A DNA stretch of 52,720 nt, from assembly GCA_024401975.1 (NCBI GenBank), contig JAKSKB010000003.1, forward strand, positions 1 to 52,720, written 5' to 3'. Position numbers and translations under genes: made by a program. Of the stretch, positions 4,341-12,302 are shown piece after piece (positions within the stretch are counted from its first letter, which is position 1; every line of letters begins with the position of its first letter). The DNA is from Bacteroidales bacterium (GTDB lineage Bacteria; Bacteroidota; Bacteroidia; Bacteroidales; UBA932). A model generated the notes under the pieces. That model searched no databases and was not told the DNA's origin. It saw only the letters and a program-made list of their open reading frames with translations.

Positions 4341-5776
4341 TCTCTGCCCGCTTTGAGTCCCATTTCGGCTGCTTTCCTGCGCACAATGGCATCGGCTTCA
4401 TCGAAATTGTTCCCGATTACTCCGTCAAGTATGGATTCTTTGACGTACTCTTTCAGTATGCCTATCTCCCTGCACGGAGGAATTCCGTAGAGTTCCATAA
4501 GATATTCTCCGGAAATGGGATTCTTGAAATTGCGTATCCTGTCCTTTTCCTCCACCTCTGCTAGTTTCCTGCGGACAAGATCGAAATTGTTGCGTATGCG
4601 GGCGACTTTCGCGGGATTCTTTGAGGTCACGTCGGCGTCGCACAGGGTCATCAGATCATCCACGTCGTCACCGGCATCGAACAGCAGTCTCCTGACTGCC
4701 GAATCCGTCACCCCGTCATCTACAAGGGCTATGGGGCGCAGGTGAAGTTTGACGAGCTTCTGAACGTATTTCATCCTTTCGTCAAGAGGAAGCGAAAGCC
4801 TCGTGAAGATTTTGGGAACCATACGGGCGCCTATCAGTTCATGCCCGTGGAAAGTCCATCCGGACTGCGCGTCGAAACGTTTGGATGCAGGTTTGCCTAT
4901 ATCGTGCAGAAGCGCGGCCCATCTGAGCCACAGACGGGGTTCATCCCCGTCGGAGGCGCTTACGTTGTCAAGGACTGCCAGCGTGTGCGAGAAATTCTCC
5001 TTATGACCGCGGCCGTCGATGGACTCGACGCCCTTGAGTCCCGATATTTCCGGAAGTATGCGTTCCAGAAGCCTTGTGTCATCCAACAGGCGGAACGCCA
5101 TCGACGGCCGCGGAGTTGCCATCATCTTGTTGAGCTCATCGGCAATGCGCTCTTTTGAAAGTATGGATATCCTGTCTCCCATACGTCTGATTGATTCAAC
5201 AGACTCGGGTACTATGGTGAAATTCATCTCCGGTGTGCTCAATTTTGTGGCGAAACGTATGGCTCGGAACATCCTGAGCGGGTCGTCGGAATAGGTTGTG
5301 TCCGGGTCGAGAGGGGTTCGTATGATGCCTGCGGCGAGGTCTCTTATGCCACCGAAAGGGTCAACCAGTTCCCCGTATGAATCCTTCTGCAGGCTGAAGG
5401 CCATCGCATTTATGGTGAAATCGCGGCGCATCTGGTCGTCTTCGAGCGATCCGTTCTCCACGATGGGGTTTCTGGATTCGCGTCTGTATGATTCCTTCCT
5501 CGCCCCGACGAATTCTATTTCATCGCCTCTGTAGCGGAGCATCGCAGTGCCGAAGTTCCTGAATACGGACACTTTGGACCTCACCCGCTTTCCCACCGCT
5601 TCGGCAAGTTCAGTTCCGCTGCCTTCCACCACTATGTCTATGTCGTTGGACTGTCTCCCGAGGAAACAGTCACGGACATACCCGCCTATTACGAATGCGC
5701 GCACTCCCAGCCGCTGAGCCTGCTCCGACACTATGCCGAATATCGGATTTTCCAGATATCCTTCCGTGATTGTCAT
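4337..5776 (-). CDS. cca: CCA tRNA nucleotidyltransferase / poly(A) polymerase family with HD domain
   Basis: Adds or repairs the 3' CCA of tRNAs. The N-terminus carries the class II nucleotidyltransferase core: IGGYVRDCFLG (about 31-41) and the metal-binding DIDIVVEG (about 46-53). The RRDFTINAMA motif follows at about 118-127, then DDPLRMFRAIRFA (about 165-177), which belongs to the neck and base-recognition region. The C-terminal half has an HD domain with LLHDIGKP (about 290), like E. coli-type and many Bacteroidetes enzymes. At 479 residues it is full length. The start overlaps the stop of the upstream HsdR-N gene (ATGA), so the two are coupled. A-adding and CC-adding subtypes cannot be separated by eye. 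Confidence 0.9.
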   Translation of the reverse strand: MTITEGYLENPIFGIVSEQAQRLGVRAFVIGGYVRDCFLGRQSNDIDIVVEGSGTELAEAVGKRVRSKVSVFRNFGTAMLRYRGDEIEFVGARKESYRRESRNPIVENGSLEDDQMRRDFTINAMAFSLQKDSYGELVDPFGGIRDLAAGIIRTPLDPDTTYSDDPLRMFRAIRFATKLSTPEMNFTIVPESVESIRRMGDRISILSKERIADELNKMMATPRPSMAFRLLDDTRLLERILPEISGLKGVESIDGRGHKENFSHTLAVLDNVSASDGDEPRLWLRWAALLHDIGKPASKRFDAQSGWTFHGHELIGARMVPKIFTRLSLPLDERMKYVQKLVKLHLRPIALVDDGVTDSAVRRLLFDAGDDVDDLMTLCDADVTSKNPAKVARIRNNFDLVRRKLAEVEEKDRIRNFKNPISGEYLMELYGIPPCREIGILKEYVKESILDGVIGNNFDEADAIVRRKAAEMGLKAGRD

Positions 5777-6180
5777 TTCAACATATCTTCATAAGACGGC
5801 AGGGAAGGGGAGAACACAAGCCCGTCCGCCGACTTTTTCGCTACAATCGTATTCTTGCCGTTGGTGATGAACACCCATTTTACGGACAGGGCCATATCGT
5901 AACGGAGGGCCTGACCGAGTACCTCGGCATCGAGTTCGATTTCCGGCCGCTTGCATTCCACGAGGGCAACAGGGGAGGCGTCACGTCCGAAGATGACTAT
6001 ATCCGCCCTGTAGCGTTTGGACGATTTTCCCCAATTGAAGCCCACTTCGCTGCGCATCATATGTTCAGGCACCTTCATGGTGTCTCTCAAGACCGAGATG
6101 AACCACTGGCGTACCGTCTCCTCCGGAGTCAGTGCGACGTTTTTCCTGCGAAGCGGGTCTCCTATGCTTGTTTTTGCCAT
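5773..6180 (-). CDS. Stand-alone HsdR N-terminal (PD-(D/E)XK-like) domain protein
   Basis: A 135-residue protein that resembles only the N-terminal nuclease domain of type I restriction HsdR subunits (HSDR_N_2 type). The nuclease core is readable as RADIVIF (Asp), then VALVECKRPE with the ExK pair. An N-terminal helix carries EETVRQWFISVL, and an Arg/Gly region precedes the core. There is no helicase domain, HsdM or HsdS nearby, so it is not a restriction system. It is translationally coupled to cca. The start at 6180 was chosen because upstream in-frame sequence overlaps the divergent xerC gene and is not conserved-looking. Function is unknown; a DNA or RNA processing role is inference. Confidence 0.8.
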   Translation of the reverse strand: MAKTSIGDPLRRKNVALTPEETVRQWFISVLRDTMKVPEHMMRSEVGFNWGKSSKRYRADIVIFGRDASPVALVECKRPEIELDAEVLGQALRYDMALSVKWVFITNGKNTIVAKKSADGLVFSPSLPSYEDMLK

Positions 6181-6189
6181 ATCCGCTTG

Positions 6190-6206
6190 CAAATATATCA
6201 AAAATA
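6190..6206 (-). promoter_or_regulatory. Two candidate -7 elements for the HsdR-N/cca operon
   Basis: On the minus strand TATTTTTG (6206-6199) and TATATTTG (6197-6190) both match TAnnTTTG just upstream of the start codon at 6180. If the proximal one is used, the mRNA would be nearly leaderless. On the plus strand a weaker TACTTTCG (6210-6217) may serve xerC. Confidence 0.5.
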
Positions 6207-6225
6207 CGGTACTTTCGGAGCGGAA

Positions 6226-7146
6226 ATGACAGATGCTTTCATCACATACGTCAGGGATGTCAGGCGTTATTCCTCCAGGACCTGTACGCTTTACAGAAGC
6301 GTGCTCGAGAACTATGTCTCTCTTTTCGGGGACATTCCTACGGCCGAGAACGTCAGAGGCTATGAAGTCCTGCTGATGGATGAACGCGGGATGGACCCTC
6401 GCACGGTCAACCAGCATCTCTCCGTGCTCAGCGGCTACTGCCGTTTCCTCGTAAAGAAAGGCGTCCTCAAGTCCAATCCCGTCAGGACCGTACCTCGCCC
6501 GAAAATGTCCGTGCGCCTGCCGGAGTCCTCGCGCGAAGAATCGATGAAAGAATAGTGCGAGGGAGCGCGAGACCGTCTGGATGGTGACGATATGGGGATG
6601 CCACAGAGGTACGAACAGCGTCTCGGACGCCTCATAGTGTCGCTTCTTTACAATACAGGGATAAGGCGGGCCGAATTGCTGTCGCTGACCGTTTCTTCTC
6701 TGGACAGGGGACGTTCTGTCCTCCGCGTGAAGGGAAAAGGGGATAAAATGAGAGAAATTCCGCTTGTCCCGTCCGTTTGTGACGAAATATCATTATATTT
6801 ACAATCAGTTGACACGATGGTAGGATGCGTCCGTACTGCGGACAGCCCCTTGCTGGTGACTCTCAAAGGTCGTGCCCTTTATCCCGTGTTCGTGGACAGG
6901 GCCGTGAAAAAGGAATTGGAATCCGTTCCCGGCATCACGGGCAGGAAGTCGCCTCACGTGCTCAGGCATACGCTGGCAACGGAGCTGCTCTCCGACGGAG
7001 CGGACATCAATTCCATAAAGGAATTCCTGGGGCATTCGTCTCTGGCGGCTACGCAGGTATATACGCACAATTCCATCGAGAAACTGCTGAAAGTTTATGA
7101 CAACGCCCATCCAAGGGCAAAAAACGGAGGTAAAAATGGAGATTAA
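6226..7146 (+). pseudogene. xerC: XerC-like tyrosine recombinase interrupted by an in-frame TAG
   Basis: Reading one frame from ATG 6226 to the stop at 7144-7146 gives a full-length tyrosine recombinase (about 305 residues, normal for XerC/D), except that codon 110 is TAG (6553-6555). The N-terminal half (FITYVRDVRRYSSRT... VNQHLSVLSGYCRFLV) is the core-binding SAM-like domain. After the stop the same frame continues with DRLDGDDMG and the intact catalytic domain. All catalytic residues are present: Arg in NTGIRRAELLSL, Lys in KGKGDKMRE, HVLRHTLATEL, GHSSLAATQVYTH with the Tyr nucleophile. The downstream part could start at ATG 6592. No frameshift exists, so this is a single substitution, a sequencing error or a readthrough site. 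The 3' end overlaps hpf by 11 bp. Confidence 0.85.
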
Positions 7147-8680: not shown

Positions 8681-8713
8681 GGGGTTGACCAAAAAGTCAA
8701 CCCCTTTTGTCTT
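8681..8713 (+). terminator. Intrinsic terminator-like hairpin after galM
   Basis: Perfect inverted repeat GGGGTTGAC (8681-8689) and GTCAACCCC (8696-8704), followed by TTTTGTCTT. It lies 113 bp after the galM stop. The 3' arm and tail recur at 17655-17672 with one mismatch, so this is a repeated element and not only a local terminator. Confidence 0.7.
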
Positions 8714-8756
8714 ACCCCCGCTGCTGACGCAGCTGCCCCGGTGGGGCATGCCGCCT

Positions 8757-8776
8757 GCACTTCGTTCCAGCGGGTG
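8757..8776. repeat. Interspersed intergenic repeat block, copy 1
   Basis: GCACTTCGTTCCAGCGGGTG here matches 40334-40353 at 19 of 20 positions. Both copies follow a GCCCCGGTGG-containing hairpin (here TGCCCC/GGGGCA, 8734-8748) and lie between genes. They are probably members of one short repeat family. Confidence 0.75.
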
Positions 8777-8867
8777 TCTCCGTGGCTCAATGTTCATTTC
8801 GCTCACTCCGACACGGCGCTGAAGCGCCTTATTAGTCAACCCCCTCTTTTTCTTTCCCCGAGATGAG

Positions 8868-9033: not shown

Positions 9034-10638
9034 TTACGCGGGGATTTTCAGTATGGAGTCGGCGAAGGACAGCACGCGTTCCCTGTGAGATATGAATATG
9101 ACGGTCTTGCGACCGCCGTATCCGGCCACGAGACGCTCCAGCACCCTGTTCTCAGTATCACTGTCAAGCGAGGAGGTCGCCTCGTCCAGGATGAGGACAT
9201 TTCCCGGGTGCAGCAGAGCTCGGGCGATAGAAACGCGTTGCGCCTGTCCTTCGCTCAGACCTGTTCCGCCTTCACCGCAGACACAGTCCGGACCGTCAGG
9301 AAGATTGAAGACGAAGTCGGCATCGGCTGCGTGGAGTGCCTGCGATATCGCCTCTTCGCTGGCGTTGGGATTTGCGAGGAGCAGATTATCCCGGATTGTC
9401 CCGCTCAGGAGGCTGTTGCCCTGCGGGACATACATAAAATTGCATACGGGTATCCGTGAAACGCTGCCTTCTTCCGGTTTGAGCAATCCCATCGCGAGTC
9501 TTGCCATTGTGCTTTTCCCGCTTCCGGTAGGGCCTGTGACAGCAGTGAAAGTGCCGGATGTGAACGTGTGCGAGAAGTTGTCAAGCACTTTCCTGACCTG
9601 TCCCGGATATGAGAAAGTCACGTCCTTGAACTCTATTGACGGGGCGCTTTCGAGAAGCGGGCCTTCAAGAGGAATGTCTTCCTTCATTCCGGTGAGTTCC
9701 GTTATCCTTTCCTCGGACGCAAGCGCCTGGATGCAAGCCGGTATGTGCCTGCTCATATCGGCTATGGGTCTTTGAATCTGTCCGACAAGTTGCAGGAAGG
9801 AAATCATCATTCCGTATGTCACCGTTCCGCCTGCAATTCCGAATATGCCCCAAAGAAATGCAGCAGCGTATCCCGCCCTGAACCCAAGTCCCATCACGGC
9901 TCTGGCAAAGGTCGTGTAGTCGAGCCTGTCAATCACTGCCTCTTCTATGTCGTCCTGCACAAGTTTCAGTTTGTGCAGGACATTTTCTATCCCGGTGAGG
10001 GTGAGTACGAGCACTCTGTTCTGAAGGTTCTCCTGCATATGGCGGTTGCTCGCGCTGTCAAGTTCCCTTACTTTTGCCGTGAGGGCGCGAAGTTTCCTGA
10101 AAAGCAGTTTCGAGCCAAGCACGGCCGCTGCGGTCAGGGAAACGAGTATCCACATCAATCCCGGTGAAAGGTACATCAGATATGCCGATGCGGCGGCAAG
10201 CTGGCACAGCGTGACGACCGTATCCGGTATCCTTGAACACACAAGATCCGTCACCACACGTATGTCTTCCTGCATCCTGTTCATTACGTCGGCGCTGTGA
10301 TAATCTTCCTTACCCGTCCACGAACTTCTGAGCACGTGGCTGAAAGTCTTGTATCTGAGAGCGTTCTGAGCCTTGATTGTTGTGAGATTCTCCCAGTAAG
10401 AGGCGGCCAGGTCGCACAGCAGTTGAAGAAGCATTGTCCCCGCGAACAGTGGAATGCCTGCGACCGGTTGCGAATCCGCCGCCCCCGTAGCCGCATCCAC
10501 CAGCAGCTTGCAGGCCCATACGAATCCCAGCGAAGCCGCCACGCGTACGAGACCGATGAGGACGCTCACGCAGATGCGCCATCTCAGGGGCTTGCAGATG
10601 GCAAGCACACCTTTTACACTGTCACCGAACCTTTTCAC
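9034..10638 (-). CDS. ABC exporter half-transporter (fused membrane and ATPase domains)
   Basis: A 534-residue ABC exporter subunit. Hydrophobic helices occupy about residues 20-290. The nucleotide-binding domain follows: Walker A GPTGSGKST (369-377), Q-loop Gln407, signature LSEGQ (461-465), Walker B VLILDE (481-486) and H-loop His518. There is no N-terminal C39 peptidase domain, so any leader cleavage must come from another protein; an S24/S26 peptidase gene lies two genes upstream. The only plausible start is GTG 10638. The frame is the same as that of the preceding PqqD-like gene and is separated from it by three consecutive TGA codons. Last gene of a four-gene operon. Substrate unknown; a modified peptide is the inference from context. 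Confidence 0.88.
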   Translation of the reverse strand: MKRFGDSVKGVLAICKPLRWRICVSVLIGLVRVAASLGFVWACKLLVDAATGAADSQPVAGIPLFAGTMLLQLLCDLAASYWENLTTIKAQNALRYKTFSHVLRSSWTGKEDYHSADVMNRMQEDIRVVTDLVCSRIPDTVVTLCQLAAASAYLMYLSPGLMWILVSLTAAAVLGSKLLFRKLRALTAKVRELDSASNRHMQENLQNRVLVLTLTGIENVLHKLKLVQDDIEEAVIDRLDYTTFARAVMGLGFRAGYAAAFLWGIFGIAGGTVTYGMMISFLQLVGQIQRPIADMSRHIPACIQALASEERITELTGMKEDIPLEGPLLESAPSIEFKDVTFSYPGQVRKVLDNFSHTFTSGTFTAVTGPTGSGKSTMARLAMGLLKPEEGSVSRIPVCNFMYVPQGNSLLSGTIRDNLLLANPNASEEAISQALHAADADFVFNLPDGPDCVCGEGGTGLSEGQAQRVSIARALLHPGNVLILDEATSSLDSDTENRVLERLVAGYGGRKTVIFISHRERVLSFADSILKIPA

Positions 10639-10665
10639 TGCAGTATGACGGATAATGCATCATCA

Positions 10666-10935
10666 TCATTCTTCAACGATACCTGCCTCTTTCCAGTCTG
10701 CGGCTAATTTCGCGGAGTCTTTTGCCGCTGTCTCCGAATCTACTTCATAATGTTCGATGAGGAGCCGCGTGAGGTCTTCTACGGTAAACTCCTTGCCAAT
10801 CACGCTTTCCCAGAGGTATGCCGCAGAACTGTTGAGCACTACCATCTTGTTGAAATTGACCAGCTTTACGCTTTCTCCGATTACGATGTTCTCGTGCCCC
10901 AGTTTGCGGAGTCTGAATCCTTCTATTATCTTCAT
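10666..10935 (-). CDS. PqqD-like protein (RiPP recognition element fold)
   Basis: An 89-residue protein of the PqqD family, whose winged-helix fold binds leader peptides of ribosomally made peptides and presents them to modifying enzymes. Matching features are GESVKLVNFNKMVVLNSSAAYLW, which is the strand-turn-helix with the family's LN..A..LW signature, then VEDLTRLLIEHYEVD and a C-terminal LAADWKEAGIVEE. It lies 1 bp downstream of the S24/S26 peptidase stop and is followed by the exporter. No radical SAM enzyme, cyclase or asparagine synthetase is present in the operon. The partner could be the HprK-like kinase, but that is inference. Confidence 0.85.
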   Translation of the reverse strand: MKIIEGFRLRKLGHENIVIGESVKLVNFNKMVVLNSSAAYLWESVIGKEFTVEDLTRLLIEHYEVDSETAAKDSAKLAADWKEAGIVEE

Positions 10936-10936
10936 T

Positions 10937-11383
10937 TCAATAAACGTTTTTCAAAACAATCCTGCGGTATAGGGCGAGCAGCACCCTTCTGGGGAGATAT
11001 CCCATCCTTCTCCACAGTATCGCCCTGCCTGGTGTCCTTGTCTGCCCGTCAGGGGATACTATGTGCACCACTTTGCCGAGCACTTTGTCTTTTCCGCACA
11101 GTTCCGTCCCTCTCAAGTTTCCGTCCCCCATAAGCGTGACATCTCCACAGTCCACTCTTATGGCCCTGTGAAGGACATACCGTCCCTTTTTCACTTCGGC
11201 AAGAAGGATGTCCCCGGACCTGATATCTTTCTCCGATACCTTGCGGAGAATGACGCTGTCGCGGTCGCCTATTATGAAAGGATGCATGCTGCTGCCTCTG
11301 GCCAGGAGTTCTACGTCCTGGCCAGAGGCAAGTATCCTGCCCGTTTCGGCGAGAAGTATTTCGTTGGGAATCACTGTTTGCAT
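10937..11383 (-). CDS. S24/S26-family peptidase (SipW/ER-type Ser-His)
   Basis: A 148-residue signal-peptidase-like serine protease. The nucleophile is in GSSMHP (Ser32). The second box, RYVLHRAI, has His72 where type I signal peptidases use Lys, as in SipW and ER-type enzymes. The third box, MGDGNLRG (85-92), matches the conserved GD.N motif. There is no N-terminal membrane helix, unlike LepB; the only possible membrane-associated stretch is the basic/hydrophobic C-terminus (RRVLLALYRRIVL). This would suit a leader peptidase for a cytosolic or membrane-associated precursor. It overlaps the upstream kinase gene by 13 bp and is 1 bp from the PqqD-like gene. Confidence 0.82.
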   Translation of the reverse strand: MQTVIPNEILLAETGRILASGQDVELLARGSSMHPFIIGDRDSVILRKVSEKDIRSGDILLAEVKKGRYVLHRAIRVDCGDVTLMGDGNLRGTELCGKDKVLGKVVHIVSPDGQTRTPGRAILWRRMGYLPRRVLLALYRRIVLKNVY

Positions 11384-12264
11384 AAGGCTTCGGAGCAGAT
11401 TTTTGCGGCTTCGGCGTCAGGACGGCAGTCAAGCACGTGGCAACAGCTTTTCAAGGCAATCGCCGATATTGTGGAGTGAAGTCCGTCGGCCATCTCTTCA
11501 ATCGGTCGGAATCCAGATGAGGAGGAATATATGATTCCGTACGCTTCGGGTATTGAGAGAGGCGAAATCTTGTTCTCGCGGCTTCTGCGTATCAGCACCA
11601 TCGCTCCAAGTTCCGCGCTTTCGTTGCGGTAGCACGGGGTCTTGCCGCTCCACGGGCTTCCAAACACGCGAACCGTCCCGTCGTCAAGGATGCGGACTAT
11701 GGGATTGTCGTCGTTGAGCAGGGTGCTTCCCGGGACATTTTCAAGCCACATCCTGCTGTGAGTGCTCTTGCCGGTGCCGCTCGCGGCGAGGAACATATAC
11801 GCTTTCCCGTCTTTTACCGTCACCGATGAATGCATCTCCAGCGTATCGAGACACGCTGTCTTGAATGCGAAAAGAAGCATCGCTGAATTGTCGAGTGCGA
11901 AACGTAACATCGATTCGGTGGAGCATATCAGCGTACCCGTGGTGAAATCTTTGTTTACGCGCAGGCTTGCGACTGGTGGGACGGTGTTTACCGGAGCCAT
12001 TTCAATCCACCATCCGTCTTCTGTGGAATAGAGACCTATCAGAGGTTCTCCGGGCTCCGATACGTCTGCATACACCTCTTCGGCATTTGCAGGACGTTCG
12101 AAAGGGCAGATGTATCCCGCACTTATGCGGAACAGGCTGTCACCGTCGTCAAGGGCTTCGAACGGGGCATAATTGTCCGGGATTTTCCTGGCCTGGCCGG
12201 AGGATACAAGTTCGAAAGTGAACCTGTGTCCTGCTACCAAATAATCTTTGATTATCCTATCCAA
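11371..12264 (-). CDS. HprK-like / PEP-carboxykinase-fold kinase
   Basis: A 297-residue protein whose C-terminal half resembles the HPr kinase/phosphorylase fold. A HSSVTV segment (145-150) and a beta turn precede Walker A ASGTGKST (161-168). NDDN (184-187) sits where HprK has its catalytic Asp, and GSPWSGK (202-208) is characteristic of the subgroup found next to PqqD-like genes. The N-terminal 140 residues form a separate domain with no recognised family. It is not a housekeeping HPr kinase, since no PTS genes are nearby. Homologs in some lasso-peptide clusters phosphorylate the peptide. First gene of the operon, 31 bp from a -7 element. Confidence 0.82.
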   Translation of the reverse strand: MDRIIKDYLVAGHRFTFELVSSGQARKIPDNYAPFEALDDGDSLFRISAGYICPFERPANAEEVYADVSEPGEPLIGLYSTEDGWWIEMAPVNTVPPVASLRVNKDFTTGTLICSTESMLRFALDNSAMLLFAFKTACLDTLEMHSSVTVKDGKAYMFLAASGTGKSTHSRMWLENVPGSTLLNDDNPIVRILDDGTVRVFGSPWSGKTPCYRNESAELGAMVLIRRSRENKISPLSIPEAYGIIYSSSSGFRPIEEMADGLHSTISAIALKSCCHVLDCRPDAEAAKICSEALCKQ

Positions 12265-12294
12265 TTTTTTGGAATAAACTTACGATAACGGGGA

Positions 12295-12302
12295 CAAAAA
12301 TA
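12295..12302 (-). promoter_or_regulatory. -7 element for the kinase-peptidase-PqqD-ABC operon
   Basis: TATTTTTG on the minus strand matches TAnnTTTG and lies 31 bp upstream of the first ATG of the operon. It faces the gdhA promoter 12 bp away. Confidence 0.6.

Follow-up and report, generated by a model that had tools for sequence, protein, structure and literature searches.

The operon and its gene products

The stretch of DNA analysed here (the window: 52,720 nucleotides, contig C42 of a Bacteroidales genome of 1.75 Mb in 118 contigs, 88.6% complete) carries on its minus strand a four-gene operon at 12264-9034, which encodes in order a kinase, a peptidase, a PqqD-fold recognition element (RRE) of the kind that serves ribosomally synthesized and post-translationally modified peptides (RiPPs), and an ABC exporter (order K-S-B-D, Table 1). 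A first-pass annotation had read the region as a promoter and four tightly packed genes of an undescribed peptide modification and export system. All four genes lie where it had placed them, on the minus strand and as closely packed as claimed. A TAnnTTTG motif, the promoter consensus in Bacteroidota, does precede the kinase; the motif is short and may be a chance match.

Table 1. Features of the putative peptide-maturation operon in the window
Feature	Position	Strand	Remarks
HprK/PEPCK-like P-loop kinase, LppK-like	11371..12264	-	297 aa, TTG start as called
Soluble signal-peptidase-I-like (SEC11/SipW type) peptidase, LppS-like	10937..11383	-	148 aa; 13-bp overlap with kinase
PqqD-fold RRE, LppB-like	10666..10935	-	89 aa; 1-bp gap after peptidase
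MsbA-like ABC exporter without peptidase domain, LppD-like	9034..10638	-	534 aa, GTG start as called; 27-bp gap
TAnnTTTG promoter-like motif (Bacteroidota -7 type)	12295..12302	-	30 bp before kinase start; short, chance possible

The earlier description of the first gene product as HprK-like agrees with its weak matches to PEPCK, ScmC and HprK_rel_A, no Pfam model reaching its cut-off. Searched against the PDB, a 23-row kinase profile retrieved P-loops, with PEPCK best (1e-4), HPr kinase/phosphatase at 0.0015 and ABC transporters about equal. Residues H145, S147, F158, S162, G163, G165, K166, T168, D185, P204 and N231 are invariant in 22 rows that include two LppK kinases of Bacillota (see below). 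The peptidase, annotated as an S24/S26 enzyme without a membrane anchor, matches S24 (8e-4) and archaeal-type signal peptidase I (5e-5) below cut-off, while its profile matches SEC11A in the PDB at 2e-8; no 19-residue Kyte-Doolittle window exceeds 1.6 in the peptidase, the RRE or the kinase, which by hydropathy gives none of them a membrane anchor. Single-sequence searches of the PDB returned nothing significant. The PqqD-like assignment is confirmed by PF05402 (6e-14), and the exporter has the ABC_membrane and ABC_tran domains and no C39 peptidase domain, as annotated.

Conservation of the gene set

Relatives of the kinase (E ≤ 0.001) are patchily distributed: 33 of the order's 247 genomes, our own included, and 59 of the family's 149 have one, and a search of viral contigs found none. 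We assembled 63 loci, namely the window plus larger stretches from 20 of the 33 order hits, two of three plasmid hits and 40 further hits of the family's 59. In these loci, which were selected for the kinase, counted over the whole fetched stretch and used to iterate the profiles themselves, the kinase is present in 63, the peptidase in 58, the RRE in 57, the ABC exporter in 50 and an NTP_transf_5 (LppN-like) gene in 23. The grouping of the kinase with peptidase, RRE and exporter exceeds chance, since loci chosen for the kinase also hold the other three at these frequencies; the neighbourhood thus recurs in other genomes, a check that the first-pass annotation had proposed.

Single fused open reading frames (ORFs), joining kinase and peptidase in locus L115 (8437-9948) and peptidase and exporter in L051 (7095-9377), provide a further link among the parts of the operon. 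All five genes are present in the third plasmid hit, from Phocaeicola massiliensis (L190), which is not among the 63 loci. A search of plasmids with LppB found none. The kinase ORF measures approximately 725-728 aa in L107 (7556-9742) and L111 (8890-11067), whose fetched stretches yielded no ABC exporter. The Butyrivibrio fibrisolvens plasmid pNP243 (L033, 7650-9673), from Bacillota, holds kinase, RRE and peptidase, with a 57-aa Cys-rich ORF bearing a YxxPxL leader between kinase and RRE.

Relationship to the LPP clusters of Bacillota

According to the passages of Popov et al. (2026, PMC13381572) used here, clusters for linear polyphosphorylated peptides (LPP), such as that of Paenibacillus alginolyticus, encode a precursor LppA, an HprK-like kinase LppK, an RRE LppB, a signal-peptidase-I-like (SpI-like) peptidase LppS, an MsbA-like exporter LppD and an NTP transferase LppN. 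The leader of LppA has the consensus YxxPxVLxHQxIxFETxxS and is removed by LppS, aided by LppB; its core is phosphorylated on Ser3 by LppK. The family, whose function is unknown per its discoverers, is said there to be restricted to Bacillota, with a network cluster that is "predominantly" Bacillota; the string "Bacteroid" occurs 0 times in the main text of that paper. The same source gives paeninodins a cyclase, a B2 peptidase and WxxP leaders. Passages of a Bacteroidales RiPP survey (PMC10352776) and of an RRE survey (PMC12710340) do not mention the present gene set.

We compared the Bacteroidales proteins with 15 Bacillota loci, those of P. alginolyticus and 14 relatives, in which the paeninodin and LPP labels outside P. 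alginolyticus were assigned by position and similarity. In P. alginolyticus the Bacteroidales profiles matched lppK (5e-30), lppB (1e-6), lppS (1e-22), lppD (1e-111) and lppN (7e-12), found in the order K, B, S, D, N, and the full set was recovered in 12 of the 15 loci. The kinase profile scored 100.6 bits on P. alginolyticus LppK against 49.4 on the adjacent paeninodin-type kinase, and ranked LppK over its paeninodin-type neighbour in 11/11 loci with both. A kinase tree (midpoint root, long branches) likewise split Bacteroidales kinases plus LppK from 14 paeninodin-type kinases at 100/100. In loci holding both sets, the peptidase profile matched on the LPP side alone. As in LPP clusters, a SpI-like peptidase is co-localised with a discrete RRE in the window operon and in most of the 63 loci and of the 15 Bacillota loci.

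Peptidase residues S32 and H72 align with the catalytic S29 and H68 of LppS, and this Ser and His are invariant in 20 rows. RRE residues N35 and D73 (invariant in 19 rows) align with N33 and D70 of LppB, the residues holding the Tyr/Pro motif; in PbaB1, the paeninodin-type RRE of P. alginolyticus, the corresponding residues are G and Q. Incompetent active sites would have spoken against the first-pass annotation; the residues are mostly in place in the kinase and at the Ser and His of the peptidase, whose third residue is uncertain. Judged by these similarities, the machinery is of a known, LPP-type kind in another phylum, and the earlier claim of an undescribed system does not hold for it, although it may or may not fall within the clade published as LPP. 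Nor is the kinase necessarily the sole modifying enzyme, as had been suggested: an LppN-like NTP_transf_5 gene, absent from the window operon and present in the 23 loci mentioned, occurs on another contig of the same genome (C87, E = 3e-20), next to an NAD-epimerase and a KOW-domain protein.

Candidate precursors and their distribution

No YxxP-type ORF clear of large ORFs lies within 6 kb of the window operon. Across the 63 loci, 18 ORFs with YxxPx[ILVM] were found in 13 loci, compared with 0-7 ORFs for nine other motifs (WxxP 0, FxxP 5, and PxxYx highest at 7). With a precursor profile of 16 rows (A6), matches at E ≤ 0.01 in the 149 family genomes occurred in 45/59 with the kinase and in 4/90 without it (p = 5e-21), and in 37/51 against 4/90 when the eight genomes that had contributed to the profile were removed. 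A second profile of 29 rows (A7), applied to the order, gave 13/33 against 2/214 with our own genome counted as positive, and 8/28 against 2/214 without donors and our own genus (p = 5e-7). Short ORFs therefore do co-occur with the kinase genome-wide, and the opposite pattern had been named beforehand as evidence against a peptide system.

Genomes contain up to 14 precursor matches at E ≤ 1, among the matches listed (to about E 0.004). Most lie on contigs other than that of the operon in the three genomes G356 (8/8), G329 (10/11) and G361 (9/9), again among the matches listed. The earlier suggestion that the precursor is encoded elsewhere is thus supported by homology and co-occurrence, with candidates on other contigs.

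Anatomy of the candidate peptides and the lipoprotein-like genes beside them

A cassette scan of 96 loci and 8620 small ORFs yielded 70 matches at E ≤ 1, of which 59 were kept (E ≤ 0.01, distinct, clear of large ORFs), with lengths of 34-104 aa counted from the farthest ATG. A Ser is found at Tyr+17 to Tyr+21 in 56 of the 59 (Ser or Thr in 59/59), against a mean of 21.6 and a maximum of 34 in 1000 shuffles; in LppA of P. alginolyticus the Ser lies at Tyr+18. The tail is acidic in 58/59, and 38/59 have a Trp within the last six residues. Among 29 precursors, comparison with NCBIfam gave one match each to psaA (0.02) and lasso_cyano (E = 0.074), and comparison with Pfam gave two unrelated models (best 0.014), none convincing.

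Downstream of 57 of the 59 precursors, within 400 bp, there is an ORF of at least 150 aa, with a median gap of 18 bp. By a home-made regular expression for the lipobox, 49 of these 57 ORFs start with a lipoprotein signal, compared with 120 of 826 other large ORFs, a background that may include spurious ones; the controls, with partners left out, gave 7/46 for upstream neighbours and 14/45 for second genes downstream. Of the eight ORFs that the expression missed, two (in L046 and L049) encode the kinase itself, and several more resemble lipoproteins by eye. A Pfam scan of 25 proteins directly behind precursors, including one behind our own-genome candidate 2 (see below), found six matching Mfa_like_1 (PF13149) at E ≤ 0.01, four of them over the cut-off; others carry Fib_succ_major, DUF285, InlB-repeat, LTD or Endonuclease_NS domains, and 11 have no Pfam match at E 0.01. 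In one locus (L168, 6143-8833) the gene behind a precursor-type ORF encodes a lipoprotein-like protein of 834 aa whose C-terminal part is an Endonuclease_NS domain, possibly a secreted nuclease.

In the window genome itself, the A6 profile found no precursor at E ≤ 0.01, an early 5-row precursor profile gave a best E of 0.58, and a broad DNA motif was uninformative (366+330 matches against 520+576 for the reversed control). Two candidates nevertheless emerged. Candidate 1 (C29:6358-6471, 37 aa, E = 0.005) has its Ser at Tyr+19 and is followed by an 82-aa ORF (by eye a fimbrillin piece), a copy of a dispersed repeat and two Mfa_like_1 proteins at C29:7134-9651. Candidate 2 (C86:37330-37491, 53 aa, motif YVRPES, Ser at Tyr+19) shares 4 bp with the next ORF, of 524 aa, which by eye starts with a lipoprotein signal and has no Pfam match. 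Its E of 0.28 keeps it out of the 59 precursors counted above, for which E ≤ 0.01 was required, and context speaks for it more than score.

Proposed mechanism and alternatives

Taken together, these observations indicate that the operon is probably the LPP maturation machinery in a Bacteroidales form, serving precursor genes that are not linked to it. From homology, conserved residues, gene order, co-occurrence and cassette structure, we infer the chemical steps and the partnership of peptide and lipoprotein. Mechanistically, the RRE would bind the YxxP leader of the precursor, the kinase would phosphorylate the conserved Ser approximately 19 residues after the Tyr, the SpI-like peptidase would cut the leader from the RRE-bound peptide, and the ABC exporter would move the short acidic core out of the cytoplasm. 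The phosphate may also be decorated by an NTP transferase whose gene lies elsewhere. The sequence of leader recognition, phosphorylation, cleavage and export proposed in the first-pass annotation is thereby supported as far as homology and co-occurrence go. Because most precursors stand directly before a lipoprotein-like gene, the mature peptide would probably work together with the encoded protein, serving as its ligand, tether or assembly factor.

A wider idea, which we put forward tentatively and consider somewhat less than an even bet, is that one operon serves many dispersed two-gene cassettes, each co-translating a phosphopeptide precursor with its own surface lipoprotein or fimbrillin. 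The peptide would then be a dedicated ligand, tether or assembly part, and the RiPP system would build or vary the surface rather than produce a free antibiotic.

Several observations weigh against the LPP-type reading with unlinked precursors. On the machinery side, only the kinase and the peptidase favour LPP over lasso clusters, because the RRE and NTP-transferase profiles prefer the paeninodin-side copies: the RRE profile ranks the PbaB1-type RRE above LppB in 14/14 Bacillota loci with both, and in the PDB matches TfuB1 (2e-8), TbiB1 (2e-6) and the P. alginolyticus lasso RRE 9x90 (3e-5) before LppB (4e-5), while the NTP-transferase profile ranks the paeninodin-side copy above lppN in 11/11 loci. 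The catalytic D93 of LppS is not conserved in place, aligning with T93 next to E94, and the node that unites LppK with five divergent Bacteroidales rows in the kinase tree has a support of only 80/90, possibly a long-branch join. The candidate leaders lack the LPP consensus VLxHQxIxFET, sharing YxxPx[hydrophobic] and the later Ser. On the substrate side, the rows behind A6 were chosen by eye from the surroundings of kinase operons, neither related genomes nor paralogous cassettes count as independent samples, and 14 of the 59 kinase-bearing family genomes have no precursor at E 0.01. Conversely, four family genomes (G265, G294, G371 and G378, three of them at least 90% complete) have precursors and no kinase even by profile, which gave short P-loop matches only; these could be orphan cassettes, losses or assembly gaps. 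In our own genome, the 400 bp downstream of candidate 1 contain no ORF of 150 aa or longer, and candidate 2, weak in score, has a Ser at motif position 6, where a hydrophobic residue is usual.

The short ORFs might instead be translational-coupling or regulatory leader ORFs of the lipoprotein genes, with the operon modifying another, unseen substrate. The 18-bp median gap and the 4-bp overlap of candidate 2 with its downstream gene are typical of coupling ORFs, which however need neither an RRE-type YxxP motif nor a fixed Ser or an acidic tail, and regulatory ORFs would not track the kinase across genomes; we regard this explanation as unlikely. Even less probable is that the operon belongs to surface-polysaccharide export, its kinase acting on a glycan or small molecule. 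LPP clusters are frequently located in capsule loci (in passages of PMC13381572), and the NTP_transf_5 gene of our genome sits beside the KOW-domain protein and NAD-epimerase noted above, yet the four scanned window neighbours are all ordinary (glutamate dehydrogenase, aldose epimerase, S30AE and an integrase), and this reading leaves the RRE, the leader-type peptidase and the co-occurring peptides unexplained.

A lasso-peptide cluster or its remnant, with the RRE as B1 and the kinase and exporter as accessories, we consider the least credible of the three. The same passages list an RRE, an HprK-like kinase, an NTP transferase and an exporter for phosphorylated lasso clusters, lasso-type copies outscore LPP ones with the RRE and NTP-transferase profiles, and one of the 29 precursors gave the weak lasso_cyano match. 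Against this, a search of our 88.6% complete genome for the lasso B2 (Transglut_core3) found none at cut-off (best 15.6 bits), lasso loci of this type use B2 and not a SpI peptidase, and the kinase groups with LppK rather than with paeninodin kinases. No macrolactam cyclase (C protein) was found among the four scanned window neighbours, no genome-wide search for it having been made. Lasso cluster, polysaccharide export and regulatory upstream ORF were all rejected on the points counted against each.

If the LPP-type reading is true, this modification extends beyond Bacillota and is common within one Bacteroidales family, a search for RiPPs around the operon overlooks the substrates, which are dispersed, and in these bacteria many surface lipoproteins would be paired with a dedicated modified peptide. 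The LPP family of RiPPs would then gain a testable role.

Surroundings of the operon

A dispersed 151-bp repeat (window 8690-8840) lies just downstream of the operon and has 53 full or partial matches in the genome, some of which lie at contig ends. The copy behind candidate 1 on C29 belongs to this repeat, and a partial copy lies near candidate 2 on C86. The window also holds two adjacent plus-strand ORFs, at 5770-6555 and 6592-7146, the former resembling by eye the N-terminal part of a tyrosine recombinase and the latter having a phage-integrase-family domain. The LpxB encoded in the window has its nearest matches, within a collection of plasmid records, in Phocaeicola, Bacteroides, Parabacteroides and Prevotella (40-43% identity), as expected of a Bacteroidales genome.

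Comparison with known systems

Paeninodin-type clusters resemble the present system in their discrete RRE, HprK-like kinase, NTP transferase and exporter, and differ in having a kinase of a separate clade, G/Q at the key RRE positions of PbaB1 from P. alginolyticus and no peptidase match on their side. Type V (FimA/Mfa-like) fimbrillin lipoproteins offer a likeness on the substrate side, through Mfa_like_1 in 6 of the 25 downstream proteins, although many cassette partners differ, with other domains or no Pfam match. Literature searches of open-licence PMC brought up neither a peptide partner of type V fimbrillins nor dispersed precursor-lipoprotein cassettes.

The closest likeness is to LPP clusters, with which the system shares homologues of K, B, S and D (plus N), the N/D pair of the RRE, the two catalytic residues Ser and His in the peptidase, a leader of the form YxxPx[hydrophobic] whose Tyr is followed 18-20 residues later by a Ser, and no lasso B2 found. 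The differences are the gene order (K-B-S-D-N in Bacillota, K-S-B-D here in Bacteroidales), the shifted third catalytic residue of the peptidase, an N gene that is unlinked in the window genome and found in 23/63 loci, and an RRE and N that score nearer to paeninodin-side copies. Unlike LPP clusters, these genomes have many precursors each, largely away from the operon and most beside a lipoprotein-like gene; it is this substrate side, the scattered precursor-lipoprotein cassettes, and not the machinery, that looks new.

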